Origin: Ptychodera flava
Taxonomy: Eukaryota > Hemichordata > Enteropneusta > Ptychoderidae
Assembly (NCBI RefSeq): GCF_041260155.1
Contig: NW_027248277.1
Location: 7,313,910 to 7,377,909, forward strand
Length of the DNA: 64,000 bases
Direction: 5' to 3'
The position numbers were made by a program, and so were the translations under genes. Shown here in pieces: positions 17,269-60,814 of this stretch. Every line of letters begins with the position of its first letter. Positions within the stretch are counted from its first letter, which is position 1. The notes under the pieces were generated by a model that had not been told where the DNA came from, searched no databases, and saw nothing but the letters and a program-made list of their open reading frames with translations.

Positions 17269-17282
17269 ATGGATATTGAAAG
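17269..17282 (+). CDS. Domain gene exon 1: start codon
   Basis: ATG GAT ATT GAA AG then GTACGT. A tiny first coding exon in phase 2 whose split Arg codon is completed by exon 2. The start is chosen because it puts two residues of charge just ahead of the hydrophobic core of exon 2. Confidence 0.55.
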
Positions 17283-19542
17283 GTACGTGATTTTTATCTT
17301 GCTACAAAGGTTTTGAACGTGATAGTATTTAGAAATCACAGATTTAACCAAAATTCGAGCGATGATAAAATTAATCTTAAATATCTTTTTAATGATTAAC
17401 CCGTATAGTGCGTTTAAGCAAGCAGATGTTCGATGCTACCTTTTTACGACGTGCGTATAAACATTCTGTAGTGATTATAGAGATGTCGATAGCAGTTTTT
17501 AGAGCTGTAAATCCTCCGTTTTTTAAATAGCTGCAACTTTTTTTTTAATTTTTAACCTATTGTAATTTGTAAATGTATTAGCGAACGTTGTGGCTTTGTT
17601 ACAGTCGAAGCCAAGTCTTGTAAATGGCTTGGGATAAATTCTCGGGATCAAGTGTGTTCAAATTTGTAAGAGGGTTGTCGAAGGACAACAGCCTTTTGTT
17701 TTGTTTGTAATCTAGCAAGTGTTTTTTCCTTGCGAGACAGTCCGCCTTGGTTAATTATATCTATCAAAGAGCGCCACAAACCATTATTCTGAAAGAGTAA
17801 ACATTTCCCTGAAAAGTTAAAAATCGAGCATCATGATGGCAAGTAACCTCAAATATTATGTTTTTGAGTAGTACAAGGCAAGAGCACTTAAGTTGAACTC
17901 AGTCAAAATATTCACCAAGTTTTGAATGGAGATCCGCAGACTTAAAAGATGACCGCAGGAAGTAAATCAGACTTTATGAATAAAACCTGAACATTGCGAT
18001 GTAATTTCATCTTGCGCTTTCGAGATCTTAGTGAACGTAATTATTCACTATTGCCTCTACTTTTATTAACAGGAGCTTTTTTGCATTGGTCGTGATCTGC
18101 TGTTGCACAGCACAATTCAGTGTCCAAGGTAGGTATCTGCATTTACAACCATGTAATTTCCATTTTGTTTTGGGAGCTTTTAAACTATTGACGTTGGTCT
18201 TGAGGATGACGATAAAGACATCGAAATTTAATCATAGTGTTGATTGCGATAAAAATGCAGTATCTCTGATTCTATGAACAATGAAATTACATTACAGTTA
18301 TATTTACTTATATACTGTTGTTGTTTTCTTTTGGTTCTTAATATTATAATGGCGTACATATGCTTTACTTTACAGGATGGAACGTAGACGTCACAAATTT
18401 TGTTATCAGAGATGTACATAACATCAAATATCAACCAAACCGTTCTACCAAAATAACATTCGATGTTGATGTAGCTGTACACGGCACGTCCTGTGGCGAC
18501 CCCTACTTTGAAGGACTGATCGTATACTTCAAAGGAAACGAGATCTCAAATGGGTTCGTCGCCAGCCAGACTCGTCTGTTGTTTGGAGACATAATCCCTA
18601 TAGACAAAACAACTACTATAAGCGATGCCGTAGCTGACATAAAACCTGACGTCGACCACTGTGATAATTACCATTACCTTTGTGTTAGACTCCTCATTGA
18701 AGATCACGGTTGCTGTGGAGACCATTACTGTTACAACCTTGAAACTTGTTTGTCCTTCCATGATTCATCCCCTGGTGAATTAGATTGCTCAGGTAAATAA
18801 TACATAGAACGACGATGATGATAATGATAATAATGATGATGATGATGATGATCATCATCATCATCATCTTATTTGTGGTGATGGTGTAGTTGTCGCTGCT
18901 GTTCTTGTTATTGCGTGTGTAAAATATTACTGGTTTCTTTATTGTTGTTGTTGTTGTAGTCGTTGTCGTTGCTTTGTAAATATCTTCTATGGTGACCGTT
19001 ATTGTTCATGTGGCTGTTGATATTGATGCTTTATGTCACTGAATATTGCAACAGATGCATACAAGATGCAGATATTTTGTGTCGCTCATAAAACAAAGCA
19101 ATAATATAAAGTGATCACTTTTCCTGAACTTATTTATTTATCCCTAGGATTCCTAAATGAGCCGAAGAAGTCAGGTACAGAACAATGTAAGTATTTCATC
19201 CTTAAATATCTTATAGACTTCTCCGCTTGGTCTTTTGATATTACTCTGAGTGTACAATTAGAAACGGGTTTGATGTTAAACATTTTGAACAATGGTTTTA
19301 TTTTTACACAAACTATTGACAATTCTCCAGCATGCAGTGAACTCCAATCCTCTCCTCGTCTACAGTATTGCGGATTGGCATATACATATATATTTCGTCG
19401 ACCATTATGTTTGGTAAAGATATTTTTTACGATGCTATGAATTCTTTTGAATGTGAAGCACAGAACATACCTCTGAAGTCAATTACTTACTTACACTCTT
19501 TTCTTCATTCATTCATTCATTCATTCATTCATTCATTCTTTT

Positions 19543-19626
<84 letters not shown>

Positions 19627-22600
19627 TCCTCTCCTGTTTACTTCCTCCTTTCATTGACAGTAATTTAATCAACCGGAAGCAACCTACGGACATGTCGCTA
19701 TTTTCGAAAACATTTCCTGACATTATTGAATGAGAAACAAAGGACTTTCCTTCCCACCATGATTGACGCTTTTTACGATTAACAGTTTATTCAGATCATC
19801 ATTGAACATGTAAGCAGTATCCAGAATTTACGTGCTATCATGAGTTTATTCTAGAAAATATGTAATCAACGCAACTGAACCTAATGCCTTTATCATATAA
19901 GAATCTGTTTAATTGAGAATGTACGCATAATTTCTTTGCCAAGTGAAACAAGATTGTTTAGGGGTTATTATAGTCCCAAGGGAGAAACAAACCTTTGTTG
20001 TTACCCATTCATTTCCATAACTGAAAAAAAAATAAGAAATTTATCTGCACCACCTTTCGAGCTCGAAGATGGCACGGTAACGACTCAAAACATTTTCACT
20101 AATGACTGAGTCTTATTGGCACGTGCATGCCACATGACCTATATTCATGAAACTAGACGGCGACAAAAGACGAAGGCAGATATTTCTGTATACACAAACT
20201 TACGCACTCGAAAACGTGGATTTTACGTTAAAAAGATAATTTTGGTTTTTCGGCGTTTCTATATCACTTTCAAGTAAACGCATTTCTTTGGTGTAGAGTA
20301 CATTCATTTGGTGTTGTATAATATGATAATACAAATGTTTAAATAAACAGCATGTAAAAGAATATTAGAGGACGACTTTAATTATATCATCAAGTACCAT
20401 TTTTATAAATATTATCCACACTTGTTAACAGATACATTCATGAGGTTTGGAAAAGAAACCTTGTAAAATAATGTATATTGATACATATAGACATTGGTGT
20501 GTATCTATAATTATTGCCAAACGTGTTCTAATATTTAAATTATGGTATGTATCCTTCTATTGATTTAACGAAATAAATATGAAAAAACAACTCCGTATAA
20601 CAACATAATGGGTATTAAAAGTAAACTGTAGAACACAAAGTATTATTCGTGTTTCCCTCAATTTTTCTGTGAAGGCCGATGAGTGGTGCCTTTTAGTCAT
20701 GACAACACTGATTCTGTGCGTGTGTGCTTAATTTGAATCCGGCCTTATAATAGAGAGGTCAAAACTGGTCATTAAACCGGTGTCTATTGGAGGTAGAAAT
20801 ACTTTAACAGGTGAACGGGTTGTGAGGTGGGGGCAAATGTACTGAATAGGTCAACATGTTTAAGTCATGATAACTCTTATTTTTATCGCTGCTTACATAC
20901 AAATCAGAGATAAGTAATTAAAAGGCATCGAAATGTGTTTTGTACAGATGACTGACAAACAATGCAATGACTCAAAGTCTCATCAGAAGAAATTGAGATA
21001 GATATACCCCTTTTAGAAAAAAGGGGGATTAAAAAGCAAGAAAAAGCGAAAAACTCATTCCTATAATTCCTTACATAAAGCGTAAGCGCAATGTCTAGTA
21101 AACGTGACTTGATGACTGTATTTTCCCAATATGATCATTGTCCAGAGGAATTGAGCTAGTCATGTAATATCAGTTAATATCTTCACATTTTAATAAGCGT
21201 TCTTTCGTTGGCATCTTGTCGTTGACGACGATAAACATTACAAATGGTGCATAAATACAGACCACTAAATTTCTGTATTCGTAAGAACATCAAGTGCCAC
21301 ACTCTTTATACAAACACAAGTGAATAAAAATATTAACACGTAATTTAATTTAAGCAAATGTTAATGATGTACAATACAGCGAGATATTTGATTTTAAGTC
21401 AGTGTTTATAGGCCGGAAGTTAATATGGTATATCCGTTGCCGTAAGGAATGCCAAAATTGGTTTCTTACCAAATGTTTTTTACACGTACAAAGCGGATAT
21501 TTATAGCACGGGCAGGGTATATCGCACTACCAGTTAATTGCGTCATGCGTTATTTCGTTGCACTACGGACATTACCTGAAACTAATCTTGCTTATTACAC
21601 TCTTTGTCTGGTTCACCGTTCCCTCTTAAAGATGATTGGTGCTAGGTAGGTACAAGCAACATAATTTGAAAGAGAAAATACATTATTGTTGTAAATAATT
21701 ATGTTTATTTCAGTGATAATATAAACAGCATCGTATAAGCATGTTTACGGCTTGAAAACTGTGGCTGAATTGTGTAGAAATGTGTCTTTGTGTTTGATAA
21801 TCAGGTCTTTCTGCTTACAGATAGCAGCAAATGACTTGTCGGTTTAGTTTTTGAAGTTTTTCCAATATTCTTGAATTGCTCCAAGTCTGTGGGCGTATAA
21901 GTATCAAAACATAATATAAATTGAAGGACTAAGCACCAGTAAACCGTCATGCTAAGTTGCAGGCTGTCGCCTGTAGCGTTGGGTGAATGCCATGGCCCAC
22001 AGGCAGTAACTCAGCTGCCGAGAAAAGCCAGGCGACTGAGGGCCAGTCTATAATGATCCTTCTCTGCGTTATCTTACAGGAAAGCCGTGTTAGTTGCTCT
22101 CTTTACTCCACACTGTACCTGTACAAAGTTAATGGTATGTAACATACTTACACTGCATGAAAACCCAATAATTCAGATAAATTCACTCCAGTTGCCTGTA
22201 TTGTAGTATAATACACGTGAATGTATTCATCTGTATATGCACTCTTCAGCTAAAATACAGGCAATAATCCATGTTAATACAGTAAGTATTATAGGGTTTT
22301 ATGCAGTGTTACTTTTACACTAAATTTTGCTTCTGCTTTAATTCTGGTCTTGCATTGCCAATTATATAATTCCAGTAACTTGCTGGGTGACGGATACACT
22401 CTTCTAAATGTCAAAGGTTAGGATGTCAGATTCGCTTTCTCAGAGGTTTGAGTTCGAAACCTATGAAGTCTACATTAGCCAACTCACAACCAATGATTTA
22501 AGGAATGGCATGATCTGTGGTCTATGGGCAAGATTCGTTATTCCTTATTACTTCTTTGGTAATGGGCAATGCATAATCGATCCTTTGTTGCGAATTGGCT

Positions 22601-22731
22601 CAATTTTGATGAACGAAATTAAAAAAGATGTTATATAACGGTGCTTTTGACTTAAGAAATTGCCTTATAATCTTGGATATTAATATTCATGCAAGTACTA
22701 TTTCATGAACATATCGCTATTGAAATCTCTC

Positions 22732-22822
<91 letters not shown>

Positions 22823-23246
22823 GCTTCAGAAGTACATATCAAAAATTTCGTTATACACGATGCTGGTGCTGTTAGATACAATCCTTTGTACCCAACCCAG
22901 ATAACGATCGACATTGACATTGACACCGATATCGACATGGAAGATCTACACTGTAGCCATTACTTCGGAGGGTTTATCATTTATTTCAAAGGCAATGGTA
23001 TTTCAAATGGGTTTGTTGCTAGGCAACACTGTCTGCGTTATAGTGACCGCATTCCCTTACGTTCTAGAATTGACATCAAGGATGTGGTTGCAATCGTCCA
23101 GCCAGACACTGAGAACTGTCGAAATTACAACCAACTCTGTATCAGACTTCTGACTGGCAGTCATTGCTGTGGGAGGGAGAAATGCGACACTGTTGAAACG
23201 TGTCTGGCCCTTGATACTTCGTCTACGGGTTCATTGGAATGTACAG
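17269..23246 (+). CDS. Secreted or membrane protein with tandem eight-cysteine domains (5' part, exons 1-5)
   Basis: Exons are 17269-17282, 18073-18128, 18376-18792, 19148-19186 and 22824-23246. All borders are GT/AG and all phases match (2, 1, 1, 1). Residues 1-24 'MDIERSFFALVVICCCTAQF...' form a signal peptide. Two homologous ~140-residue domains (D1 and D2) follow, separated by a 13-residue linker. I do not recognise the domain family. Shared features: 'NFVI', 'ITFDV'-like beta strand, 'G[LF]I[VI]YFKGN', 'PDxxxC', 'LC[VI]RLL', 'CC', 'C(x)nETC', and a final '[DE]CxG'. The pattern suggests an extracellular beta-sandwich with four disulfides (inference). Exon 5 ends in phase 1, so more exons follow. 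Candidates lie at 57714-60814, or the transcript may end by reading into the intron, which encodes a hydrophobic tail and stop at 23318-23320. Confidence 0.7.
18073..18128 (+). CDS. Domain gene exon 2: signal-peptide core
   Basis: Bounded by TTATTAACAG and GTAGGT. Encodes 'SFFALVVICCCTAQFSVQ', a hydrophobic core with small residues at a plausible cleavage site (CTA-QF). It is followed by the split Gly that begins domain 1. Confidence 0.7.
18376..18792 (+). CDS. Domain gene exon 3: eight-cysteine domain D1
   Basis: A 417-nt exon (139 codons), phase 1 at both ends, between TTTACAG and GTAAAT. Key stretches are 'VTNFVIRDVHNIKYQP', 'KITFDVDVAVHG', 'GLIVYFKGNEISNGFVA', 'IKPDVDHC', 'LCVRLL', 'HGCCGDHYC', 'LETC' and 'LDCSG'. 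The eight shared cysteines all have counterparts in D2 and D3. Symmetric phases make it a shuffling-ready module. Confidence 0.8.
18835..18868. repeat. Perfect (GAT)/(ATC) palindrome
   Basis: (GAT)n runs directly into (CAT)nC, giving a 34-bp perfect inverted repeat centred on GATC. It lies in the intron after D1. Confidence 0.9.
19148..19186 (+). CDS. Domain gene exon 4: 13-residue linker
   Basis: After TTATCCCTAG, encodes '(G)FLNEPKKSGTEQ(C/S)' and ends at GTAAGT, phase 1-1. An earlier GTACAG donor at 19175 would also keep phase 1 and shorten it to nine residues. Short, so less certain than the domain exons. Confidence 0.5.
19328..19673. repeat. Dispersed repeat copy 2 with (ATTC)n and (CTTT)n tracts
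   Basis: Counterpart of 1-352. The ATTC tract (about 19503-19538) runs into CTTT (about 19540-19628). It lies in the intron between the linker and D2. Confidence 0.85.
19700..22130. other. Intron before D2
   Basis: AT-rich, no gene supported. A GC-richer patch with short inverted repeats lies near 21955-22035. Confidence 0.5.
22141..22318. mobile_element. Foldback (MITE-like) palindrome
   Basis: The left arm contains 'ACACTGCATGAAAACCC' and 'TTGCCTGTATT'. The right arm holds their reverse complements, 'GGGTTTTATGCAGTGT' and 'AATACAGGCAA', in mirrored order. Arms are about 65-75 bp with indels. No target duplication is evident. Confidence 0.7.
22400..22480 (+). repeat. Weak tRNA-like segment
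   Basis: The text 'GAGGTTTGAGTTCGAAACC' resembles a tRNA T-arm/B-box, with 'GGTTAGGATGTCAGA' upstream as a loose A-box. It may be a SINE head in the intron just before D2. Confidence 0.25.
22738..22820 (+). repeat. (CT)n microsatellite acting as polypyrimidine tract of the D2 acceptor
   Basis: About 80 bp of almost pure CT runs straight into TAG|C at 22821-22824, where exon 5 (D2) begins. The microsatellite therefore is the polypyrimidine tract of this splice acceptor. Confidence 0.8.
22824..23246 (+). CDS. Domain gene exon 5: eight-cysteine domain D2
   Basis: A 423-nt exon (141 codons), phase 1-1, ending at GTACCT. It reads 'SEVHIKNFVIHDAGAVRY', 'QITIDIDIDTDI', 'GFIIYFKGNGISNGFVA', 'VQPDTENC', 'LCIRLL', 'SHCCGREKC', 'VETC' and 'LECTG'. 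Alignment with D1 is nearly gapless across all eight conserved cysteines, and one extra Cys ('QHCLRY') is present. If the intron is retained the frame continues into a hydrophobic stretch ('FCLYAYPIAFMSFVTLLG') and stops at 23318-23320. This could be a membrane or GPI-type tail, or chance. Confidence 0.8.
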
Positions 23247-23305
23247 GTACCTTTTGTCTATATGCCTATCCAATTGCATTCATGTCTTTTGTCACTCTAC
23301 TGGGA

Positions 23306-23480
23306 ATGAATGAATGAATGAATGAATGAATGAATGAATGAATGATGTATGTATGTATGTATGTATGTATGTATGTATGTATGTATGTATGTATGTATGT
23401 ATGTATGTATGTATGTATGTATGTATGTATGTATGTATGTATGTATGTATGTATGTATGTATGTATGTATGTATGCATGC
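23306..23480. repeat. (AATG)n and (TATG)n microsatellites
   Basis: AATG repeats to about 23344 are followed by a long TATG run to about 23475, with a degenerating 3' end. All open frames across it are microsatellite translations. Confidence 0.97.
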
Positions 23481-23484
23481 ATGC

Positions 23485-24070
23485 GTGCATGTGTGCAGGG
23501 AGGGAGGGAGGTACAATGGCATATAGATAGGAGAGCGCACAAAAAGTAGCACGTTTTATTTCACAAAAGTGCAGCGCTACAGACTTAGTCTACATTCTTC
23601 ACCTCGTTTCACTTTTTATTCAAAATATGAAACAGGGTGTAATAACAGCTAATTCAGCAATGACACTAATTTTGTGTTCCTTTATCACCGAGAATATGAA
23701 AACCATACAAAACGCCAAGGCACTTTAGTAACGCATTATCTTTACTGCACCAAACTTGTTTTTTAACTTTATCAACCTATTGTGAGATGACAATATTCCT
23801 TCGTTTTGCACACAGTGTAATTTTATGCACTGAATCAAGGCCATCTCATCATGAAGGATATACGGACGGACAACAACTGAAGGCTGGGAATTGTTGGAGA
23901 ACAATCAGTCGATCACCGAGTACAAGTTTGCTTGATGCTGCTCTTTGATTTTATACGACGTTCTGATTTCACTTTCATATGTGTTAAGTAATAATATGTA
24001 TTGGATAATCTGTTTCATGAATATAACTTCCTACATTTACTGTCTGTATTTTACGTCATCGAAATCACGA
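23485..24070. other. No gene seen
   Basis: AT-rich sequence with no clear repeat or coding signal. Confidence 0.5.
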
Positions 24071-24071
24071 A

Positions 24072-24223
24072 TGGGTGACCATGTATGTATTCGGCCCCGG
24101 TTGTAGACAAATTAAGTGAAACCATCGTGAAAATGAATTAGTGGTCATGACCATTCATTCATTTTCGCCATAGTTTCATGTATCATGTCTAAAATCGGGG
24201 TCGAATGTATGCATGGTCACCCA
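24072..24223. mobile_element. Foldback element, 152 bp, near-complete palindrome
   Basis: The ends are perfect inverted repeats 'TGGGTGACCATG' and 'CATGGTCACCCA'. Homology continues inwards ('ATTCGGCCCCGG' against 'AATCGGGGTCGAAT', 'GTGAAACCAT' against 'ATAGTTTCAT') to a centre at 'GGTCATGACC'. There is almost no loop. No clear target duplication beyond AA is seen. It looks like a MITE or solo foldback. Confidence 0.8.
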
Positions 24224-24224
24224 A

Positions 24225-24925
24225 ATATCAGTATCTTTCAACATGTCAAACAATATAAATAGTATCTTGCAACAAACAAAATTCATGAAAAATGGACCGC
24301 AACCTTAAAGATCTGGCCAAGCTCAACTTACATGCTAACACATGAAATCAGTCAATCATTCCGTATCATTCACAAATGAAAAATTAATTTTAAGCGACTG
24401 ATGACGAAAACTCTGTTTGAGAAACGTAGCGTTGAAGGATCGCAGAGTAATCTTGTTCGGGGTCTATACAAGCACAGTGACTGCCTCAACGGAATCATAC
24501 ACAAAACGCAAACAACAAAGATATGAAAGATGTGTGGAGATTTTTTCTATTATTACACATATTGGTTCAAATTGGTAAGGTTTGATTTCAGTCGGGGCGA
24601 AAGTAATACTTGATGTCAGAAATATCGCCGTCCAAACTCTCCGTGACATCTTACGAACGCGTTGAACTGTTCACAGTACTCCTCCAGCTGCAAGCGACAA
24701 TCGTCTGTATCGCCGATGACGTCACGCACGCCTCTCCCATGAGCCCTTTCGCGCTCATGGAATTCCATGCTAATTATCACAAATGTCGTCTACTTCAACT
24801 TCTCTTTTCGTCGCGCCCTAGTCGTCAGCGTGTACAATTATGTTGCAAATTGGAGCTGCATTTTATTCAAGGTTGATTTAAAAAGAAAAGATGAATTTCG
24901 CTGGATTTAGGTTTCCCTTTAATGC
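24225..24925. other. No gene seen
   Basis: An 88-codon open frame at 24610-24876 has no recognisable motif and no convincing splice context. Confidence 0.5.
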
Positions 24926-24929
24926 TACC

Positions 24930-25216
24930 ACTCCCGCATATTTGCAGGATTTCCCCTTTTCTTACCTCATTTGCATATTTTTGACACTGACATGTTCATT
25001 TGAACGTCATATCTCAACCCCTTGGTCTACCTGTACACCAAATACTGTGATTGTAGGTGGGGCAGTTTGGGAGTTTTTGCGTGTGGCGGACATATACATC
25101 TGCATATACGTACATACATACATACATACATACATACACACATACATACAACAGACGCTAATGACTCACCATATAAGCTCTTTTTGGTATTTATATACAT
25201 ACCTAATATGAGCTAA
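24930..25216 (+). mobile_element. Family A element 3' part (CATA microsatellite plus terminal hairpin)
   Basis: A conserved block, 'TGCATATTTTTGACACTGAC' and 'CTGTACACCAAATACT', is followed by (CATA)n (about 25107-25150) and then a hairpin-forming end 'AAGCTCTTTTTGGTAT...ATGAGCT'. The same succession recurs near 35040-35300, 35560-35815, 41000-41352 and 43430-43550. Confidence 0.75.
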
Positions 25217-25219
25217 AAG

Positions 25220-26035
25220 CAGCTTTAGCTTCATGAATCTTTTTAATAACAATAATGGTGGAACGTATGCGACATATGAAATGCAAAAAAGCGACCCCCA
25301 ACCTTCAAATTATATTGTAAAATTTGACTCCCCCATTCATCAATCGTAAAACGTTATCCCCCATAAAAAAACAAACATTTTGCTTTGATCCATTAACCCT
25401 TTGCAAGGCCTGTAAATTAGTAAGTTTGCCTCCCTTTGTTTGCACATACCACCATATCAGAACTCTCAAACTCTCTTTTTTAGAATGGCAATACCAGTGC
25501 AACTGTTATTATACCTATAAAACCAGTCTTTCGTCCAGCATTGAAGTTCCCGAATTTAGATTCTCTTGCTGGTAGTATTTGCTGCCACAAATGACAGTCT
25601 GGCGTGGGGGGGGGGGGGGGTGTTACTAAAACTTTGCACTGCCAACCTACATTTGTGTTCTGAAAAAAAGATAAAACTGACGAGCACGCAAAAAGACATC
25701 ACTAGTGCTACTAATTTCTGGAACGTTCTCAGAAGAAAATTATAATTTCTTTTCAAACTGCTCTATTTTGCACCAAGCTTTTCTTTACACACTCCTATTA
25801 GGGTTTTGTGATTGAAACTTGTCAAAGATTTAACTTTGTAGCCAGTAGAATAAAAAAAATAACAAAAAACAAGTCATTAACAATGACATAGTCCCCACTT
25901 GTAATAGGAGTATTAGTCTTGATGGGGAAAGGGAAATGTGGTCATCAAGAAGTATCACTGGAGAGTATATGTTGAGATCTATGGGCACATGGGTCTCTGT
26001 CGTTGTTCCTAATTTGAAACACATGAGGCATGTCT
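25220..26035. other. Repeat-derived sequence, no gene
   Basis: 25250-25480 carries the 'GACCCCCAACCTTCAAAT' type of C-run-rich text seen in old interspersed repeats. G14 homopolymer near 25607-25620. Open frames on both strands look non-coding. Confidence 0.45.
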
Positions 26036-26039
26036 AAGT

Positions 26040-26806: not shown

Positions 26807-26872
26807 ACTGTGTCACTGCATCCTTTCTGCAATATGAACACGATGAGAGACTAAATTTTTATTTTTCGTGGC

Positions 26873-27155: not shown

Positions 27156-27164
27156 AATAAAGCA

Positions 27165-28440: not shown

Positions 28441-28444
28441 TGAA

Positions 28445-29029: not shown

Positions 29030-29800
29030 ACTCAGCCTCTCAACCTGAATGGGGCATGATAATATTTTTTCTCCATAATAATAATGATTCAAAATTACCC
29101 ATTAAAATTTATAATAAATTTGTAGTTCAAATGATTTTTTCCCTTTCATTTTGATTTTAATATCATTTTACAATGCCCATTAGTACCATGTACATATATT
29201 TTTAACATCAGGACTAAACTTTTTAATACTATTGTTTGTTTTCTTGCATAGTTTGAAAGATGTCACTGTAGATAGCAAACTTGAAACAAATACCAGTTAT
29301 GGCCGAAACAGCCTCTCGAATTGAAATTGGTATGATGATATTTTTTATCCCAAAGATGACAATTCACAATTACCTAGTCCATTACGGGAAAGCTCCATTA
29401 ACTTAGGAATACCCCACTTCCCTACTAGGTCAAAGGAGGATTTATTTCACAGACCTGCCTTTCCTACAATGGCACCAGCTGGATAAGGTAAACATAACAA
29501 TGGAGAATTCACACCTTGGGGGTCTTCTGTTTGTCACCCGAGTTAGTCAGGCAAGGACCCGGGTTTCATGTACCATGCAAGTTAATGCAGTCTTTCCCTA
29601 ATGCAAATTTTAAGTACCGGTATATCATGACTTTGCAGTTCAAATTATTTTTGACAGGTACATTTTGATTTCAATATCAGTTTTCAAATGCCCATTAGTA
29701 CTTTGTATACGGATAGTTAGTTTTGAAACACCAAAATTGAACTTTAATACCATCGTTCATTGTCATAGTTTTAAAGATGTCAATGTCAATAAAACAATTT
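29030..29800. repeat. Two diverged direct repeats
   Basis: 'AAATACCAGTTA...CAGCCTCTC', 'TTCAAATGATTTTT'-type text, 'CATTTTGATTT', 'CAATGCCCATTAGTAC' and 'GTTT(A/G)AAAGATGTCA' occur in the same order in 29000-29270 and 29285-29780. They are old duplicates next to the foldback element and may be part of the same repeat unit. Confidence 0.65.
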
Positions 29801-35819: not shown

Positions 35820-36535
35820 GATACAACATAATTTTGCAACATTTTTAGGAAATCTGAATGACATTCTCCATTGAGACCTATAAACTTTACGTAAAAGCAC
35901 AACGATCAGTGTCTGAGAAGGAGCAATATTACTGAACGATGTTTGCATGATGGACAACATCAGTCACTGGAGATGAAGCAAAAACCAACTTTAATAGAAA
36001 ACTGAAGATATTATTATATGAACAAAGCTACATAAATTATACCTGGGGTATCCATAGCAAAATTCAAGCAAGCAGACTGGTAATTCCTGAGGTTTCGTTT
36101 TTTACTGTTTTTTGTTTAGCATATTTTTTCCACTTCAACAAGATCATATTTCAACCTGTTATAAATCCAAAAAATACTTTGGTGATACACAAGTTGTCCT
36201 CGTTAAATTATTGGACTCTGTATGAATATTTCCTGACAAATTTTGCATTTGAGAAAGAAACAAAGAATAGACACTCAGCACTTGCACAGTTATGATCAAT
36301 TTATGAATACATAAACAAAAGAAATAGATACTTGCAGCATTGCATAAAGAATACTTACCATACTGGCTGGCAGATTGACTTCCTTCAAAAGTAAACTCAA
36401 GACCTTTGGGATAGGATGAATAAAAGTATTTGTGAAACTGAATGTTTACATTCTGAAAACAGTACATGTATGTCAAAGTACATTTGTTGCATGTGGTACA
36501 ATGTAGCAACACTTGCATACTATACACTGATGTTA
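35820..36535 (-). repeat. Segmental duplication, copy 1 (right part)
   Basis: Matches 37353-38070 almost throughout, including the 140-bp run beginning 'ACTGGTAATTCCTGAGG'. It contains the small exon 36359-36403. Confidence 0.9.
36359..36403 (-). CDS. Linker exon candidate, copy 1
   Basis: 45 nt, phase 1-1, between CCCAAAG and GTAAGTAT on the minus strand. Encodes '(G)LEFTFEGSQSASQYG'. Phase matches the NACHT exon at 34277. The acceptor is weaker than in copy 2. It is likely part of the region upstream of the NACHT. Confidence 0.5.
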
Positions 36536-37230: not shown

Positions 37231-38070
37231 GAATAACTGTGGATGAAATCAAGCAAATCCTTTATTGTGTGTAATGTTACAAAAACATCAAGGGTGAAAA
37301 TGAGAGCGGCCCGGCTTTTACTACAAATAACAAATGTTAAATATCTACAATACACATGGTTTTGCAACATTTTCAGGAAATCTGAATGACATTATTCATT
37401 GAGATCTATAAACTTTATGTGAAAGCACAATAAGCAGTGTCTGAGAAGGAGCAATTTCCTGAATGATGTTGGCATGATGGACAACATCAGTCACTGAAGA
37501 TGAAGCAGAAACCAACTTAGAAAACTGAAGATATTACTATATGAACAAAGAAAGCCACATAAATTATACTTAGGGTATCCATAGCAAAATTCAAGCAAGC
37601 AGACTGGTAATTCCTGAGGTTTCGTTTTTTACTGTTTTTTGTTTAGCATATTTTTTCCACTTCAACAAGATCATATTTCAACCTGTTATAAATCCAAAAA
37701 ATACTTTGGTGATACACAAGTTGTCCTCGTTAAATTATTGGACTCTGTATCAGCATTTCATGACAAATTTTGCATTTGACTGTGTGAGAAAGAAACAAAG
37801 ATTAGACACACAGCACTTGCACAGTTATAATCAATTTATGAATAAACACAGAAAAGAAGTAGATACTTGATTAAGAAGAGTTTTACCTGCAGCATTGCAT
37901 AAAGAATACTTACCATACTGGCTGGCAGATGGATTTCCTTCAAAATTAAACACAAGACCTGTGGGATAGGATGAATAAAGTATTTGTTAAACTGAATGTT
38001 TTACATTCTAAAAACGTGTATGTCAATGTGTACAATTGATGCATGTGGTGGCAACACTTTCATAATATAC
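37231..38070 (-). repeat. Segmental duplication, copy 2
   Basis: 37231-37345 matches 34271-34385, the intron and acceptor just before the NACHT exon. 37353-38070 matches 35820-36535. In copy 1 the two parts are separated by a family A insertion. Copy 2 stops matching at the NACHT acceptor and holds no NACHT coding sequence. Confidence 0.85.
37914..37958 (-). CDS. Linker exon candidate, copy 2
   Basis: 45 nt, phase 1-1, between TATCCCACAG and GTAAGTAT. Encodes '(G)LVFNFEGNPSASQYG', 11 of 16 residues identical to copy 1 by eye. Both exon edges are conserved between the copies, which supports real splicing, perhaps as alternatives. Confidence 0.5.
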
Positions 38071-49260: not shown

Positions 49261-49263
49261 TAC

Positions 49264-51063: not shown

Positions 51064-51142
51064 CGTTCCGAATAAAAATGAAAGAGCTACAGCTGGATAG
51101 AAACTGCGTTCGACGGCTTGTAGTGTGTTTTGATAAGGCGCT

Positions 51143-51372
51143 TTAAATAAAATTCTTTGTTTGCCGTCCGCGTGCTGGTAAGTTTTTAGATAAAATTAAG
51201 AAAACAAACACAATGTTAACACTATCACAAATAAAAACAATATTTTCCCAAAAAGAATCCTAATAAAAATTGAGCTTATGTTAATACACTTGTGTTTTTT
51301 GTCTTTTTTTCCCCTGGCTGGCTGGTAGGTTTTTCAAAAATCTAAGGACGGCAAACGAAAAATGTTCTTTAA
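51143..51372. mobile_element. MITE copy 2, TTAA-flanked
   Basis: The same element as 42722-42952, interior 51147-51368. TIR start 'ATAAAATTCTTTGTTTGCC', end 'GGCAAACGAAAAATGTTCT'. It lies just upstream of the minus-strand promoter. Confidence 0.8.
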
Positions 51373-51379
51373 ATGGCCT

Positions 51380-52286
51380 AACATTGAAATCACCTTGACT
51401 GAATTCATCTTGTCAGCTACATTCTCCAGCAGCACAAACAGAACAGACGTTGTGTCTGTCAACATACATATTTCCTTCTCTGTGCTTTCGAAGCTACCAG
51501 TCCATAAGCTTAGCTCATTTAGAGAGCCATTCGTCTTTCATGTGAACCACGTCCTATAAAGTGGACAGTCACTAAACTGAGTGCAATGCATAACAATAAA
51601 AAGTTATCTAGCTCAAGTATTGGCATGTATACAAGTTTTGATATGCTCAGAAAGCAAATACAAATTCATCTTACGACAACAACATAATTTACATAAGCTT
51701 AGGCTATAGGGCCTATTGCCCTTTTATAATCGTCTAGGCTATTTTCTCATGTTGACGAGTAGACTTTTCAGTTGTTGGAGCCTGGGATGTCGTCACTGTA
51801 GAATAATGGTCTCAAATGCGACATGAACTTCACAAAGTAGAGACTAACAGCTACATTATAAACAATATAAATGATATGAAAACGTCGTGGTATTATCAAG
51901 TCTAAGTCCTCAAAGTATACTTGTCGTGCAAAATTACATCACTCTGCTCTGTTCAATATCAGACCTCAATGTTAATATAATGCAAGCTTTTGTATGTTCG
52001 AATGTCATCACTCAGACTGCATTTTTGCTAATATTCAATAAACGTATTGTAACTTCACACTTGATTTTTGAAATGTAACTAAAAACGCCATATTAAATAC
52101 ATAACATTGTGCTGATGTCAAATTGTAGTGAGGAGTTAGAGGACAACAAATTAATCATACCTGTGCAGTTAATAACATCATAATTATGCACTATTAAGTG
52201 ACATGCAATGATTCATTATTATAGCGGCGATGGGAGTCATAGCTACAATGTTGGCTCTTCTCCGTTAAGACCCGTGTGTGTAAGAA
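51380..52286. other. Intergenic, no gene seen
   Basis: AT-rich; small open frames lack motifs. Confidence 0.5.
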
Positions 52287-52458
52287 ATGACAGTTTTTGC
52301 ATTTTTCTCGGTCTCATCGTTGTTCACCGGATGCTGGAGTGACTGCCAAGTTCTCTCGACGCAAGATGGGATGTCCTCGTTCAAATGTACGCTGATGGGC
52401 GGCAAACGCTGTAGATACAGCTTACCCCAGATTCGAGTACACAACAACACAAGTAAAG
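52287..52458 (+). CDS. Possible signal-peptide exon, phase-1 end
   Basis: The ATG opens 'MTVFAFFSVSSLFTGCWS', a plausible secretion signal. A Cys-containing stretch follows ('DCQVLSTQDGMSSFKC', 'GGKRCRYSL') and the exon can end at AAAG|GTACAC in phase 1, as do all exons of the eight-cysteine family. It could be the first exon of the 57.7-60.8 kb gene or of something else. The frame can also run on to 105 codons unspliced. Confidence 0.3.
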
Positions 52459-52459
52459 G

Positions 52460-54095
52460 TACACGTACAGTCCTCGGAACGCAGGTTCACATAAATGGTT
52501 GTATCTTGCTTGTGATAGGGCGAGGGTTAACTTTTGAGTTGGTTATCAAGAAAACGACAATACGTAACCCTGCAAGATATCGCATGGGTGTTTGTGTATT
52601 ATAGAGCTATAAGCACAATAATATATCATAAAAATGTAAGGAAGGTATTATAACAATATATAATACATGACAAATGTACATGTTGGCGATAAAATATACA
52701 ACCGTATATTATTTCTAAGTTACGCTTGTAAATGTTTGAAAATGGATGACAGTGTTCGAAAAGATTGCACTCTATGTTCTGTATCAGCTGCATGACACAG
52801 TCCATATTCGGTCTTGTTGGGAAAAAAAACATTTTACGAGACGATTTGCTATCATAATCTTGTCTTGCAAAATTTGGTTACAAGAATATATCGAAGAGTT
52901 GTCAAATTTAGCGTTGTAAGTTGATGCAAAAGTTAACAAAATACGCAAAATACTTTTGGATGTATTCATCTATCCTGAATATTTCCATAATATCTATCCT
53001 AAAATTTATCATAATAATTTTCGCTCTACTATAAATGGGCGTAAATAGTAAGCCCCAATTATATACACTTGCATGAAGAGGTGTCAAGAAAAGTTGATAA
53101 CATTAATTGAAAGAGGGCGATGCTTATAATGCTGAAATATCCGGTCAACGTCGTTTTGGCTCCTTCTGTGACATCCAGATTCATAATATAGAGCGGTGAT
53201 GAACGACTCTGGGTACACAGGCGAATCACCTACGTGTTTAGCCACTTTAATAATTGATTCTTTCGGTAAACGTATCAAATGAATGTACAATGTTTCTTAT
53301 CAAAATTTAAAGAAACATTGAAGGTCCGTTCATCAGCAGGTGCACCGATATCCTTTCAACAGAGGATGATGGCAGAACTGGAGGAGATTTTCAAAGATAA
53401 GAGACAACTGGACTATAAACATTTATTTTGAAATAGCGAATTGAAAATGGCAAGAATTAGCAAATCCATCTCACGATGTCAAGTTATATCTCTCTCCTGA
53501 CGTCAATCTTCGTTATTTAGCGAAAGAGAGTGCCCAAGGTTAAGAGTCTGCTGCCATGTTTACTTAAGTAAGCGACAATGTCAACGACAGAATAGAGACC
53601 CATAATGTAAAAGGTGAGTCAACACTCTGCAAAATAAAAAATATTGTTTCTCTTAATGTAATATACACCATTCCAGATTATGCAAAAGAAAACAAATGTA
53701 TACAGTTTAGGGTACACATCATTACGTTTTACAAATGGCTAGATAGTATTGATCAAACACGCTGTAGTACAAATGATTATTCTTTATTCCATGCCTGACT
53801 CCCAAACTTTAAACATTCTCAGAAAAGCGACTTCATAATCTTAGAATGCTGCTTGGCTTGAAAGTCGCTGCAACGTGTACGCCTATACCATCTTATTTCA
53901 GAACTGAACGTTTCAAATATCAAAAGCCGGAACTTTGCAGGTTGCCACTAGAGTTCTGACATATTTGGATCTAGTTATTTCTATAAAAGAAAAGAGTTGA
54001 GTTCAGATTAGACTCACTCACTGCACCTCATTTGCTACTCAGGTCTTTCCACAACCGAATTGTGATGCGCCCTCAACGGTCTGTCTGAGCAACCG
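52460..54095. other. No gene seen
   Basis: Open frames on the minus strand (52626-52969, 53084-53290) show no recognisable family. Confidence 0.5.
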
Positions 54096-54104
54096 TGACT
54101 CACC

Positions 54105-54281
54105 AAGCCAGCCAAACTACTAGTATATCGTAGCAGACTGAAACGATGAAAGCCTCGAAACACTCATAGCAATCTGGTGTGTCCAGGTATAAGTCGAATG
54201 TGATAAGTGTTTTGTAGGCCGGACTGTATGATAAACTATTTGCATCAGGGATAATAAAACCCCGAACACAAATTTCCGTAT
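54105..54281 (-). pseudogene. Partial eight-cysteine domain copy (D4), opposite strand
   Basis: After 'TTGTTAAAG' (phase 1) the minus strand encodes 'TEICVRGFIIPDANSLSY' then 'LITFDLYLDTPDC' and 'FEAFIVSVCY'. These match the first half of D1-D3 ('NFVI', 'ITFDV', 'GLIVYF'). The 'LCVRLL...CC...ETC' half is absent. A GTGAGT donor follows the last hydrophobic residues, in a different phase. It is probably a relic or a very diverged split copy, and it is host-derived. Confidence 0.6.
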
Positions 54282-54490
54282 CTTTAACAACATTTGCAAG
54301 AGTTTTTAAACTGTAAAACGAAAGCAGTTTTGAATTCTCCATATCAGATAGAACCAAACTTAGGAGGCGTCTTGTACGAAGCACCATCGTTATACCTCGC
54401 CAAACAAGTCCATTAGGGAGCCGTTATTACTTACGGAATCTCCGAAATTTCGGATGATAAGTGTGATCTTGTGAACCGCGGCTTTCAGTA

Positions 54491-54491
<1 letters not shown>

Positions 54492-54556
<65 letters not shown>
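54492..54556. repeat. (CT)n/(CA)n microsatellite
   Basis: CT run to about 54543, then CACACA. Confidence 0.97.
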
Positions 54557-54557
<1 letters not shown>

Positions 54558-54639
54558 GAAAGCTTGAATGACCCACCTCCACAGTCTGAGGGATCTTTTC
54601 AAATTGTTTTTTTTTTACAAAGTAAAATGTTTAGAAAAT

Positions 54640-54800
54640 GACGTGGGACACGAGAGAGTGGGTTATCCCCCTCTCACATGAAACTTTATGAGAAATTGAT
54701 ATGAGCAATAGTGCAATCTGAGAGGTATTTCAATTTATTTTTGTACTAGGTAATAATGTTTGAAATGATATTGAACACACATTTTTAATACATTTTTGCA
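54640..54800. repeat. Dispersed repeat copy related to 7020-7200 and 7500-7720
   Basis: Shares 'GAGAAATTGATATG', 'GTGCAATCTGAGAGGT' and 'ACATTTTTGCATGATCAGTG'-like text with the two copies in sulfotransferase intron 1. Confidence 0.55.
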
Positions 54801-55355
54801 TGATCAGTGTAATAAAGCCACGTACATGTATATACATTTAAGGTGATGCTATTAGATAAAAAATATTTAAGGCATACTCATTGTTACAACATGGTTGCAT
54901 ATTTATCAATCACAATATGTTGTTATCTTCCTGAATATACATTGAACGACATTGCGACCTGTAGGTCAGCAATCTTTGAAATAACCTAAACGATAGAAAT
55001 TATTCGAAAACGAATTTATTTGAGATCATTCGTTTACCAATGGAAAATTCAAAATGGATTGCTTCACGTAAACAAAATGAACTGTCTCATGGCATTGTAC
55101 AAATCTATAATTTGCCACGATTGAAGACCTGTCTGATCTGTTGGTGACGTGGTGTATTATTATACATCATTCTAAAAATGTTTGGCAAAAGTGATCGCAC
55201 TGTTGTTGGGGTAAAGTAAACATTTTTTTAATTTTGTCGACATTCACAGCGGTGTTCGGAGTCACTTGAGTAACGTTTTAATGAATATTCATTAGGTAGA
55301 CACATAAGGTTGTATCATAGGGTTTGCGGGGTATGTACACAGGAGACAATGGCGT
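54801..55355. other. No gene seen
   Basis: AT-rich sequence without recognised features. Confidence 0.5.
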
Positions 55356-55365
55356 TATTGTTAAA

Positions 55366-56735
55366 ACATTGGATTTCAATTACATCGAAATACCAAATAT
55401 GTTGAAGATTTCGTTTGAGTCCAAGCCGTTAATTAAAGTTTTAATAACTGGTACAGCTAATAGTTTCGCGAGAAATACCCGATAACTCACTGAGTAAAAA
55501 ATCCTTCTTAATCAATACATCATAGAATTTCCACGACACAAAGGTATAACGAACTCAGACTTGCTCGAAATAACATACGAGTAAACACTCCATGTATTTT
55601 CTACTGTAGTATAGACATTTGCATCTTATATATTTTTGTCCAATTGAAAATACAGCGGCCGTTTCAAGTATGACAAGACAAGACAGGTGATGCAATTTCA
55701 GGAGGGATATTTTAGTATTATTTTGAAGCATGGAATGGACCTTATAATATCGTAAATCAAAGTAAGATATAATTACATAACAACATAGAAAATGACTTGA
55801 ATAACTATAGTGGTTTTATATGATTTCACTAGCCTCAGTATTTGTAAGCACTGGCAACGAACGAATGGAGAAACGGACTATTTTACAATTAATTTTGGTC
55901 GCCAGTTTAAATTAAAACTCACCATTTAATTTATATTTATCTTGTGATAAAGTTATAAAGGACGAAACATTAATGGCCCTTTTGTGTACACCACTAAAGT
56001 TACTATTAAAGTGCATGGAAGTTATTTCATGAATGTAGGTCTGGATCTCAATTACATCGAAATACCAAATGTGTTGAAGATTTGTTCGATACCAAGCCGT
56101 TAATTAAAGTTTTAATAACTGCTACAGCTAATAGTTTCGTGAGAAACACCCGAACCTCACTGGGTAAAATAAATCCGTCTTAACCCGCTCAGGTTTCCCA
56201 TCATATAATTTTCACGACACAAAGATAAACTGAACTCAGACTTTGTTCAAAATGATATAAAGTAAACAATGCATGTTTTTTTACTCCAGTATAGACATTT
56301 GCATGTTATATTTTTTTTTCTAATTGAAAATACAGCGGCCATGCCGAATATGACAAGAGAAGACAGGTGATGCGTTTTCTGCAGGAATATTTTAGTATTA
56401 TTTTGAAGCATGGAAAGGCGGACCTAATAATATCGTAAACCAAAGTAAAATGTAATTTGATAACCATATAGAAAAAGACTTGAATAACCATAGTGGTTTC
56501 ACATGTTTCACTAGCATCAGTATTGGATAGCATTGGCAACGAACGAATGGTCCAGGAGAAATGAACTATTTGAAAATTTATTTTGGTCGCCAGTTTAAAT
56601 TAAAAATCACCATTTAATTTAATGTCACCCCGTTATAAAGTTATAATGGACAAAACATTAATGCCCCCTTTGTGTACAACACTTAGTTTACTAATAAAGT
56701 GCAGGGAAGTTATTTCATGAATGGAAGTCTGCTGC
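55366..56735. repeat. Two-copy tandem duplication, about 685 bp each
   Basis: Copy 1 is about 55366-56043 and copy 2 about 56044-56735. Shared landmarks in order: 'AATTACATCGAAATACCAAA', 'AGCCGTTAATTAAAGTTTTA', 'TATAGACATTTGCAT', 'AATACAGCGGCC', 'GTCGCCAGTTTAAATTAAAA', 'GTTATTTCATGAATG'. Divergence is moderate and neither copy is coding. Confidence 0.9.
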
Positions 56736-56879
56736 GGCCGATCACGATCCAAATGTATACATTAATGAAACAGCCAATACGATCACTTTTACATCGCATG
56801 TTTGCTTATCAATCATATATATAGCAAACGTTCTCCTAAATTATACTCATTCGGAAACGTTAGAGGTCCTCATTATATT

Positions 56880-56919
56880 ATGAAGGAAGTGCCAGTAGAT
56901 TACAAAGAATGGCAAATCG
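56880..56919 (+). CDS. Possible 5' exon before D3
   Basis: ATG-led short frame 'MKEVPVDYKEWQI' ending at G|GTAGGT in phase 1. This would join D3 with the codon GAC. It has no signal peptide, so it is only a weak candidate start for a separate D3 gene. Confidence 0.22.
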
Positions 56920-57713
56920 GTAGGTTTTATGTACTTTCATAGATCTTTTATCGATAGCAGTTGGCTGAAAAAAATGTGCTTAAAATATGCCTGATTCCTG
57001 TTGGATATCTAGACTTGAAAACTCTTGTTCTCATATCACTAGCTAGAGTTATTTGTTCTATATTTCGAGTGAGGAACAACATTTACTATATAACCATGCA
57101 CGTTCTTCTGGAAGACGAGACCGGACGTCAATTTATTTAGTTGATCATTTGCCTCGTATTCTCACAAATCATGTACAACTTTAAAAGACTAAGACACCGT
57201 CATGAGCCACATATGTTTTCACCATTAATATGTATACGAACAAGAAGTTTCATCTTATAAGCGCTTTTTATGTCTCAATAAGTTAAAGCCTTCGTTCTCT
57301 TGTGTACCTTGCAGATTTTTGGCTGCTCGTCTCTTTATTATGTCAATCTTTGTGCTGAACAGCAATTGTAATGGTCTGTACAATTTCCTAATTATTTGAG
57401 TCGTTAGTGTTTTCTTTGTTGTTTTGTGATCTAGACTTACTGCGTTCTCGACGGATTAATCAGAAATAGGAGGCGAACGTGTGTGACAATCATTTGTCTG
57501 AAGAATTTTGGCGATGCTTGAAATTAAGCCATAGATTCAGCAAGTTTCCATTTGGTTCAAACTTGCACTATACGATACCGATAATCAAGTTCTCATGCCA
57601 TTGTATGTATGTGTGTATGTACTTATTTATGTATGAGTGGATAGATTGATGTAAACTACCTTTATTATGCATTTTAAGTTTTTCATGCTTTCTTCGTAAT
57701 TTTGTTTCAACAG
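56920..57713. other. Sequence before D3
   Basis: Intron or flank; short TATG repeats near 57601-57640. The acceptor is TTTGTTTCAACAG. Confidence 0.5.
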
Positions 57714-58132
57714 ACTTATGGATTTCTAACTTCGTCATTACCAGTCCGAGCCCTTTGAATATCACTTATTCACCGACTGTGCCGATAAAGATAACATTTG
57801 ATGTGGAAGTTGAAAACCACGGCAGCTGCTGTCCACAGGAAATCATGGGTTTGATCGTGTACTTCAGGGGCCGTGATAGGATAGATGACCCTGTTGCTGT
57901 GAGAGATACCCCTTCATATCCATGGCCTACTCCTTGCGGCGATCACTGGTACCATGGCTTAACTGCAGCTTTACAACCTGACGTCCAATACTGTAACAGC
58001 AGCCACTACGATAGTCTCTGTGTGAGAATCCTGGAGGACAAGGACTGCTGTCAAAGTACTGGTTGTAAAGCAGAGGAAAACTGTCCCCCCCCCCCCTGGA
58101 TGAAAATGGCGCAGGAAAAATCAACTGTAAAG
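57714..58132 (+). CDS. Eight-cysteine domain D3 (one apparent frame break)
   Basis: After TTTCAACAG it encodes '(D)LWISNFVITSPSPLNITY', 'KITFDVEVENHGSCC', 'GLIVYFRGRD', 'LQPDVQYC', 'LCVRIL', 'KDCCQSTGC' and 'EENC', then a C12 run at 58085-58096. In the literal frame the conserved end is lost. One added C gives 'LDENGAGKINCKG', which restores the final Cys-x-Gly of D1/D2 and the phase-1 end at G|GTAATC. The exon is 419 nt, against 417 and 423 for D1 and D2. A single homopolymer error is the simplest reading. Confidence 0.8.
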
Positions 58133-60814
58133 GTAATCGAATTTTAACCACGAGTATCAAGTATTTAAGAGTGTAGTTTTTACTTTCTTTGATTTAATTC
58201 TTCATTTGAAGAATGATGGTTTGATGTACCAGTCACTTTGCTGACATGTTACTCGACTTTTTTGCGATTGTCCTTATGATCAAAAATCATAGCTGATATA
58301 AATCTGCTTCAGGCTCTGTTTGGGAAACAAATCTTTTGATTGACAGTGTAGCGTGACTGCCACACATATACCTGTTACCAGTTTATTGAAAAGCCATAAT
58401 CTGGCCAAAGCTTTGGCTACCTTGGAAGGTCTTTATTGGGTTTACATAGAACTAATGAAATGTATTTGTGTACTTATACACCTTAATTACGTTGATGTAA
58501 TTCTTTACAGGATACGCTGAGGGCTCAACACCAACTACCATGACAGATGCCTCACCGACGGAGGAATTTCAAGGTAGATTACTGTATAAAGATCGTGTTC
58601 TGCATTGAATTTACATTAAATAATAACAGTTAATAACGTCGTACAAAGGCAACCAAATTATTTTGCGGTTAGCTATTTTTAGTGCGAGCATTTTGTTGAT
58701 AGCAACAATGGGCTGGACTGTCGATATTTGAAATCACTTCATATGCGCTCTTTTGGCGGTCTGTTCGTGGACAATTCGATAAAAATATTTGCTCTCAAGG
58801 TTTCGTATTCGAGTTGCATCTGTCTCTTTTTAAAAAAAGTTTCTAGTTATTAACAGCCGGAAAGCTGAATCGAGGTTTCACATAAAATGTGGTCCTTGTC
58901 AAATACATCGCCAGTACATCTTAATTTTGATCCGTGACGGAAAAGCTGGAGACCTCAATATCGCACGTTGTCGTGCTGTTGTGGGATATTTGCCCTTTCG
59001 ACAATTTAAGGACTTTTTAAGATCAAAAAAAGATATTCACTAGAAAGATTCTCTCTTCGTTTGATCAATAGCCATAAATATTACGACTGTAAGATCTGTA
59101 GGTTCAGCATGTTTAAATTTATTCGGAGGCTGCGAGGAAATACTTTCTAATAGCGATAAATGTCTTACAATTGTTTCCAATAGCATATTTATCATTTTAG
59201 TCTACTCTTTACATTATAATATGGGAAATACCGGGATTTTAAACTGGCCATTCTGCGTCACTACAACCAGCGTCGATATCATCAATTTTTGAGCTTCGGA
59301 CCTCTGCGTCGATCGTCGATGTGCTCGTCATTTTAGACAAGCGACATACAGTTTCCACTGCAAAGTTGAAGGGGTCAAAAGCTACCTCCACCCGCACGCT
59401 GAGCCTCAAAAAAGTCGTGTAATGAAATCAATAATTATCATAGACTACGACTACAGTAACCTCAACAACGAAATCACAAGAGTGTAAGCTTGTATATTGA
59501 TTTTAAGGAATGACCGGGAAGATTTTTCGGAAACAACAAACATAACCGTCGATTCCGTTAGCATCATTGCAACATGGTCGGGCACGAAGTTACAAAGTGT
59601 TCGCGTCGTTGAGTTTCATTATATTTTTGTTCTCGAATAACAGCATAACTTTTTCTACGTTAAATTTCTTGGCCTATGCTATCTTTCAAATTGTGTAGAA
59701 GTTAGAGAAAGGTTCGTATAGTATGAAGTCTTCCGGTAATTGTTCGACAAGACTTAAGCTATGGTTTATTTATATTATTCCAAAAGTAGTTCAAAAGTTT
59801 AAACGCAGAATTGTTAAAATTTATAACGCCTTTAATTTTACAAAAACTAATTAAGTCAATGCTTGTGCATGTAATCAGTGTATTATTCACCAATGTTTTT
59901 CATCGTTCACATCGGGAAATACTCGTAACGTTATAACCGTTTCACAGTTCGTGTTCTACTCGTGGTGATTAGGTCATTGCGTCCCTCGTATTTTCCTTCG
60001 CCGAAGAAAAATAATGTTGGGGAATAATATCTTTACCCAAAAGTTTGAAACATTCTGATATTGCGTGTCTGTGTCCATGTAATCATTTGTTGAATTGACT
60101 GTGTTACACTGTTGTGAACTTACTTTATGACTCTACGTGCACCATCATTGATTATTACATGCCTCATATATGGAACGTCACGAGCCCCATAGGATTCAAT
60201 TGTAACTGGTTTGTGACGTAGCCGGCCGCACGTGAACCGGAACTATTTTTAGCACAGACGACAAGCGAGGGATTGAAATGATCAAAGCACACAATTTTTC
60301 ATGAAAGATTAAATCAATTCTTTAATAAATACGCAAGTTTCAAATATTTACACAACGCGTAATACTGAAAAAATGAAATATACTGTGAAAATGCGAATAA
60401 CACTTAACGTTCATGTGCACGTACGTGTGACGTCGGGCAAATGGTCACTTACCCTCGGGCATATAGTCCCATTTTGGGGCTATAATATATAATGTACGAT
60501 TACCCAAATAACATTTTTCGAATCTACTATTATTACAAGAATGTAAATAATGGGTCGTTATCTTGGACTTCAGTTTGGAAGTCACATCGGTGTGAACTGC
60601 AGTCAAACGTGTTGGATTAGTGATCCACTTGATAGAACTATAGCACTGGTTTCTTGTTCGAACCAGATCAAATACAAAAGCACATGCAGTGTATTTGAAA
60701 CAGTATCTTTTCGCTTTTCTTGCAGAATCTGGCGTGCAACACGAAGTTGGTAACATCCTGATGGTGATGGCCGGTATCAGTATTGTTGTTATTATCGTCG
60801 AAGCGAGGGTTTAA
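57714..60814 (+). CDS. Eight-cysteine domain gene, 3' part (D3, linker, hydrophobic tail)
   Basis: Exons are 57714-58132, 58511-58573 and 60726-60814, all joined in phase 1. The product is one eight-cysteine domain, a Thr/Pro/Glu-rich linker, and a C-terminus with about 16 hydrophobic residues followed by 'EARV' and stop. This could be a single-pass membrane anchor with a tiny tail or a GPI-anchor signal. It may be the end of the gene that starts at 17269 (phase fits; 34.5-kb intron holding the minus-strand receptor locus), or a tandem paralogue with its own start at 52287 or 56880. Function unknown; likely extracellular and surface-linked. Confidence 0.65.
58511..58573 (+). CDS. Linker exon, 21 codons
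   Basis: Between TTCTTTACAG and GTAGAT, phase 1-1. Encodes '(G)YAEGSTPTTMTDASPTEE' and 'FQ(G)', likely O-glycosylated stalk (inference). It parallels the 13-residue linker at 19148. Confidence 0.6.
58574..60725 (+). other. Last intron of the domain gene
   Basis: About 2.15 kb with no recognised repeat. Open frames near 60445-60756 overlap the last exon in other registers. Confidence 0.5.
60726..60814 (+). CDS. Terminal exon: hydrophobic C-terminus
   Basis: After TTTTCTTGCAG, phase 1, it encodes '(E)SGVQHEVG' and 'NILMVMAGISIVVIIVEARV' then TAA. The hydrophobic span right at the C-terminus suits a GPI signal or a tail-less membrane anchor. Confidence 0.6.

Follow-up and report, generated by a model that had tools for sequence, protein, structure and literature searches.

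What kind of protein is encoded by the cysteine-rich exons that recur in the genome of the hemichordate Ptychodera flava? We analysed a window of 64,000 nucleotides (nt) of contig NW_027248277.1 (positions 7,313,910 to 7,377,909 of assembly GCF_041260155.1; G+C 36%), in which an earlier note had described three full copies and one partial copy of a domain of about 140 residues, here called D1 to D4; positions below are those of the window. D1 and D2 were assigned to one gene (gene A) and D3 to another (gene B). The explanation that we consider moderately probable is that they represent a family of beta-sandwich proteins, secreted or membrane-anchored and stabilised by disulfides, that would act in recognition or adhesion outside the cell.

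Judged by sequence comparison, the three full copies are real, as had been claimed. D1, D2 and D3 could be aligned with one another over roughly 120–140 residues, with identities of 46% (D1/D2), 39% (D1/D3) and 30% (D2/D3), D3 being cut for these comparisons before a run of 12 C near its end. Smith-Waterman scores of 309, 166 and 133 for the same pairs stood far above those of 500 shuffles each (means 31, 29 and 29; maxima 57, 57 and 47), ruling out chance similarity, and a phmmer search with D1 as the sole query recovered D2 at 3.6e-34 and D3 at 2.9e-15. A profile derived from D1–D3, against which the scores of these copies themselves are not independent, found no further full copy among the 2477 six-frame open reading frames (ORFs) of the window; a stretch at 60313-60489 (E 0.15) was dropped as a domain copy. 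The copies have been under constraint: each has one frame that is stop-free through its full length, and the proportion of nonsynonymous differences (pN, 0.33-0.49) lay well under that of synonymous differences (pS, 0.71-0.82), with D3 again cut before the C run. Synonymous positions are thus close to or at saturation, indicating that the copies are old and that the protein was kept. Recent copying at the DNA level was ruled out, as blastn among the copies gave short matches only, the best being 65 nt at 74%. Of the aligned columns, 32 are invariant, among them NFVI, Y-x-P, ITxD, G-x-I-x-Y-F-x-G, PD, LC-x-R-x-L, CC and three more cysteine columns nearby; the last invariant column, S130, lies after a frame change in D3 and is to be disregarded.

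These copies also bore out much, though not all, of the layout that had been proposed for the domain. Seven cysteines are invariant across D1–D3, and the eighth of the set that had been called conserved is present in D1 and D2, but in D3 it is reached only through another frame past the C run. The counted stretches hold 8 (D1), 9 (D2) and 9 (D3) cysteines, so that eight is the shared set. D1 (417 nt) and D2 (423 nt) have AG/GT borders and phase 1 at both ends. The description of the copies as symmetric, single-exon phase 1-1 modules therefore holds for two of the four, but not for D3 as assembled, which fits only with its frame change discounted, nor for D4, which is broken. In the proposed end motif '[DEN]CxG', the G comes from the splice donor (G|GT). 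N-glycosylation sequons were found once in D1 and twice in D3.

We found no named family for the domain in the libraries searched, in agreement with the earlier note: D1, D2 and D3 all remained below the cut-off in Pfam (best E 0.042), NCBIfam gave no named relative (best E 0.075), none of the three matched PHROGs, and profile searches of PDB sequences reached 0.73 (profile A1) and 0.58 (profile A2) at best. None of these four libraries yielded a significant match to a named domain. No relatives were found in viral contigs (A1, D1, D3), genome contigs (A1) or phages (D1), which are virus, phage and prokaryote collections and silent on animals, and no literature title or abstract opening surveyed names such a domain. 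The Pfam profiles of Ig, V-set and I-set gave no match at E up to 1 in D1, D2 or D3, those of FN3, CARDB and ML (NPC2-like) gave none at E up to 1, and that of CFEM gave none in D1–D3. The family, absent from the libraries searched, is probably a new one of an ordinary, common kind.

AlphaFold models of the domain were predicted to be nearly all beta. The D1 model reached a pLDDT (predicted local distance difference test) of 63.5 and a pTM (predicted template modelling score) of 0.60 from 3 sequences, and the best D2 model 73.3 and 0.68 from 4 sequences. Both predicted structures show the same succession of seven long strands, with an extra 3-residue strand in D2, and both end in a hairpin with the CC pair near its turn; from the strand limits, Cys102 and Cys124 of D1, each 11 residues from residue 113, may face each other. 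Foldseek searches of the PDB at E up to 10 returned 887 matches for D1 and 1083 for D2, one each below 0.001, of which we considered the best 50 in each case. The top TM-score (template modelling score) among the matches listed belonged to 8b5l_q, a chain of a ribosome-Sec61-TRAP entry that we take to be a TRAP subunit with a beta-sandwich (0.57 for D1, 0.56 for D2); it is also similar in size, but its identity to D1 and D2 is 16% and 8% with no sequence match, a likeness of common fold only. As regards a possible Greek-key sandwich, the models have seven predicted long strands and reach TM-scores of at most 0.57 among the 50 matches listed per search. Those matches include TRAP entries, ApaG, UNC119, Kir channels, ASF1 and glycosidases, a wide spread that reflects how common the sandwich is and thus names no family. 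Against a library of viral structures, the D2 model gave 690 matches, the one below 0.001 being an uncharacterised phage protein. The predicted fold therefore appears to match beta-sandwiches only generically.

That the predicted fold resembles many unrelated sandwiches would also be expected if the domain were a diverged member of a known animal sandwich family (Ig, FN3, CARDB, ML or another E-set-type family), and profiles built from just 3–4 sequences may miss relatives. We regard this as possible but well short of an even chance, given that no Pfam model passed the cut-off and that the PDB profile searches were equally empty; it is in any case compatible with the family of recognition or adhesion proteins proposed above. 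In animal surface proteins, Ig superfamily and FN3 domains are encoded by one phase 1-1 exon each, in tandem after a signal peptide. The genes here resemble that arrangement in that D1 and D2 each occupy a phase 1-1 exon, in tandem behind a signal-peptide-like exon, and in that beta strands are predicted. They differ in lacking any Ig or FN3 match in Pfam at E up to 1, and the cysteines common to D1–D3 fall mostly in the last third of the domain. Moreover, D1 strand 24-35 holds no cysteine, so the classical Ig B–F disulfide would be absent if this strand is B; Cys102 falls within strand 98-110 (strand names are provisional, and confidence in the D1 model is low). CFEM domains also carry eight conserved cysteines and are secreted or anchored, as the present domain putatively is, but they differ in that Pfam gave no match and that D1 and D2 are predicted to be nearly all beta. 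CFEM is described as confined to fungi in an excerpt of PMC9684206.

We then asked how the domain exons could be joined into genes (Table 1). D1 and D2 are probably tandem domains of one gene. A signal-peptide-like exon sits 247 nt upstream of D1, a single ATG exon candidate was listed for gene A, and the exon scan between D1 and D2 found no signal-peptide-like exon, which favours one two-domain gene; candidate terminal exons between the two domains at 19420, 19459 and 22250 were set aside as low-complexity or weak. After D2, the transcript would either be spliced to a further exon or read on into a hydrophobic tail ending at 23317. A near-pure (TC)n microsatellite (22726-22821) lies directly 5' of the D2 acceptor and may act as its polypyrimidine tract.

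D3 appears to belong to a second gene. Its signal-peptide-like exon has the same phases as that of gene A and sits 340 nt upstream of the domain. A one-exon signal peptide was sought upstream of D3 and not found, and an ORF running from 57650 into D3 was ruled out as a signal peptide since it has no Met and represents the pyrimidine-rich end of an intron. The putative terminal exon is open only by phase 1 entry, its two other frames meeting stops. Downstream of D3 the first scan listed no other terminal candidate, and a looser scan listed five, of which this one was the most hydrophobic. With regard to a possible glycosylphosphatidylinositol (GPI) anchor, for which a small-residue cleavage site, a spacer and a hydrophobic C-terminal stretch would be expected, the encoded tail shows SG, a polar spacer and a hydrophobic stretch of 15 residues, but ends in EARV. 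Thus, of the signal peptide and hydrophobic tail that had been proposed around the domains, signal-peptide-like exons were found ahead of both D1 and D3, whereas a terminal exon was supported for the D3 gene alone and not after D2. In all, the analysis supports a repeated domain whose proteins are probably secreted or exposed at the cell surface. ARAGORN also placed a tRNA-Tyr (anticodon ata, 59896-59973, plus strand), possibly spurious, in what would be the final intron of gene B.

The two-exon signal-peptide scan had been relaxed from donor 7 to 6 of 9 after the D3 exon was spotted by eye. In this loose form it listed 7 rows on the minus strand and 6 on the plus strand of the window; the latter fell at 3 places, including those before D1 and D3. 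A phase 2 ATG exon with a donor of at least 7 was found upstream of 3 of the 7 minus-strand rows and at 2 of 3 plus-strand places; the D3 gene has such exons at 56341/56350, which differ from the preferred one at 56909. Cut-offs of the first terminal-exon scan were fixed before the exon at 60726 was known, though the end coordinate in the earlier note was known, while those of a further terminal-exon scan over the window (3 plus and 0 minus rows) were fixed once 60726 was known.

Table 1. Features of the domain genes and of the D4 relic (positions in the window; donors are given as x of 9).
Feature	Position	Strand	Remarks
Gene A exon 1: ATG, MDIE and part of R	17269..17282	+	14 nt, phase 2 donor 8/9
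Gene A exon 2: signal-peptide-like core SFFALVVICCCTAQFSVQ	18073..18128	+	strongly hydrophobic; phase 2 to phase 1; donor 8/9
Gene A exon 3: D1	18376..18792	+	phase 1-1; 8 Cys
Gene A exon 4: D2	22824..23246	+	phase 1-1; 9 Cys; donor CAG|GTACCT 7/9
Hydrophobic tail into which D2 may read, ending at a stop	23247..23317	+	would replace splicing at the D2 donor
D4 relic	52161..54281	-	N-half 54279-54142; tentative C-half 52457-52209; family-like donor after 52161
Gene B exon 1, preferred among three candidates: MAN and part of R	56909..56919	+	phase 2 donor 6/9; picked by eye, uncertain
Gene B exon 1, alternatives	start 56341 or 56350, end 56366	+	donor 7/9
Gene B exon 2: signal-peptide-like core FLAARLFIMSIFVLNSNCN	57315..57373	+	phase 2 to phase 1; weak donor 6/9
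Gene B exon 3: D3	57714..58132	+	419 nt; frame changes within 12-C run 58085-58096
Gene B terminal exon: SGVQHEVGNILMVMAGISIVVIIVEARV and stop	60726..60814	+	15-residue hydrophobic stretch; possible membrane or GPI-type anchor

Exons of phase 1-1 are readily shuffled, and the D2 donor (7/9) may lead to distant exons. Both points could fit a scheme in which D1–D3 are exons of bigger multidomain proteins, the remaining domains lying in unrecognised exons. We consider this unlikely, as signal-like exons stand close 5' of D1 and D3 and the terminal exon of gene B is in phase.

The domain frame of D3 comprises 2 nt and 139 codons in its 419 nt and would thus exit in phase 0, continuing past the 12-C run into CPPPPWMKMAQEKSTVK. 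The other frame past the run reads LDENGAGKINCK followed by a phase 1 donor and carries the last cysteine, comparable to the ends of D1 (LDCS) and D2 (LECT). This frame change is either an assembly error, for which a run of 12 C is a likely site, or a lesion.

D4, on the minus strand, is probably a broken genomic copy and likely the partial copy of the earlier note. The D1–D3 profile detected it as a half copy (E 1.7e-5) with a weak second half (E 0.0095). Its N-half resembled D2 (E 5.7e-6); the C-half is tentative (E 0.002 to D1, with two in-frame stops), and the whole is a broken relic. D4 starts at the same phase 1 place as the full copies, behind a poor acceptor with 7 pyrimidines in 14, and tentatively ends in AACTGCACAG|GTATGA, like D1–D3, in a frame different from that of the C-half. 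The halves are separated by some 1.7 kb without a match; this stretch has no second copy in the window and shows no inverted or direct repeat readable as the ends of an element. A retrocopy origin of D4 was set aside because of the family-like donor at its end, although the poor acceptor and the motif in another frame speak otherwise.

The frame change in D3, the stops in D4 and the want of a convincing last exon in gene A could together mean that the genes are dying duplicates and that the cluster may be without present function. This seems improbable to us, given that pN lies well under pS in D1–D3, that the domain frames are stop-free and that the C run is a likely place for an assembly error.

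We therefore return to a family of secreted or anchored recognition or adhesion proteins. Under this explanation, two paralogous genes would give rise to small proteins of the secretory pathway, built from one exon-borne domain of about 140 residues that would fold as a seven-stranded beta-sandwich with around four disulfides. Gene A would encode a signal peptide, D1, D2 and an uncertain last exon, and gene B a signal peptide, D3 and, at the C-terminus, a short hydrophobic anchor lacking any cytoplasmic domain. The family would have grown by exon duplication and whole-gene duplication, leaving the dead copy D4 behind, and its products would bind an extracellular partner or ligand (in recognition, adhesion or matrix) by the sandwich loops, without signalling of their own. 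It is the layout alone that suggests such a role.

Several observations weigh against this explanation. The D1 and D2 models rest on just 3 and 4 sequences, the other four of the five D2 models reached a pLDDT of only 57.8-62.8, and the best Foldseek matches by E-value were other chains that superposed poorly (9n9j_5 at a root-mean-square deviation of 23.6; 7adi_B at a TM-score of 0.31). No sequon was found in D2. Gene A lacks a convincing last exon, the candidates at 29212, 29615, 29639 and 33773 being weak or distant. In the assembly, the frame of gene B is broken, its first exon is ambiguous among three candidates, and its second exon has a weak donor and was missed by the first, stricter scan. 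Finally, signal-like exons also occurred elsewhere, at 1 other plus-strand place and in the 7 minus-strand rows.

Between genes A and B, two minus-strand ORFs matched families of defence interest. One, at 34353-33256, matched NACHT (PF05729, E 5.4e-12); the ORFs following it down to 31312 gave a NOD2_WH winged-helix hint (E 0.015, below the cut-off) and include a long portion in which Pfam found no leucine-rich repeat match. These ORFs look like the rest of a NOD-like receptor. The other, of 421 codons at 49279-48014, matched GT4-conflict (PF20706, E 2.1e-21), a type of glycosyltransferase. An excerpt of PMC8195603 describes GT4 domains as predicted effectors of biological conflict systems that are expanded in the coral Acropora digitifera, and mentions that GT4 is fused to TRADD-N in cnidarians, cephalochordates and hemichordates (PMC8195603). 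This NACHT and GT4-conflict neighbourhood would by itself suggest a marine invertebrate as the host, and it is the sole, weak hint of an immune setting. That the genes encode lineage-specific recognition proteins with a disulfide-rich sandwich of their own, standing in an invertebrate immune gene neighbourhood, is in our estimation a doubtful prospect; if true, their duplication, dead copy and strong divergence would point to an arms race.

Elsewhere in the window, overlapping plus-strand ORFs upstream (13037-13528 and 13486-13815) matched a sulfotransferase (PF03567, 13037-13815) over profile positions 7-107 and 101-202, suggesting an intron or a frame change. A 355-bp repeat with a TTTC array occurred at 1-349 and at about 19328-19682 (86% identical), and two plus-strand ORFs (35951-36292 and 37574-37867) were 94% identical over 69 residues, perhaps a recent repeat.

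As it stands, the family described here is probably one among many lineage-specific secreted families. If animal-wide searches confirm that it is unnamed, it would provide a new disulfide-rich extracellular exon module, along with a seed profile for invertebrate proteins now labelled 'uncharacterised', and if it proves to be the recognition module of an immune cluster, it would represent a new type of invertebrate receptor.

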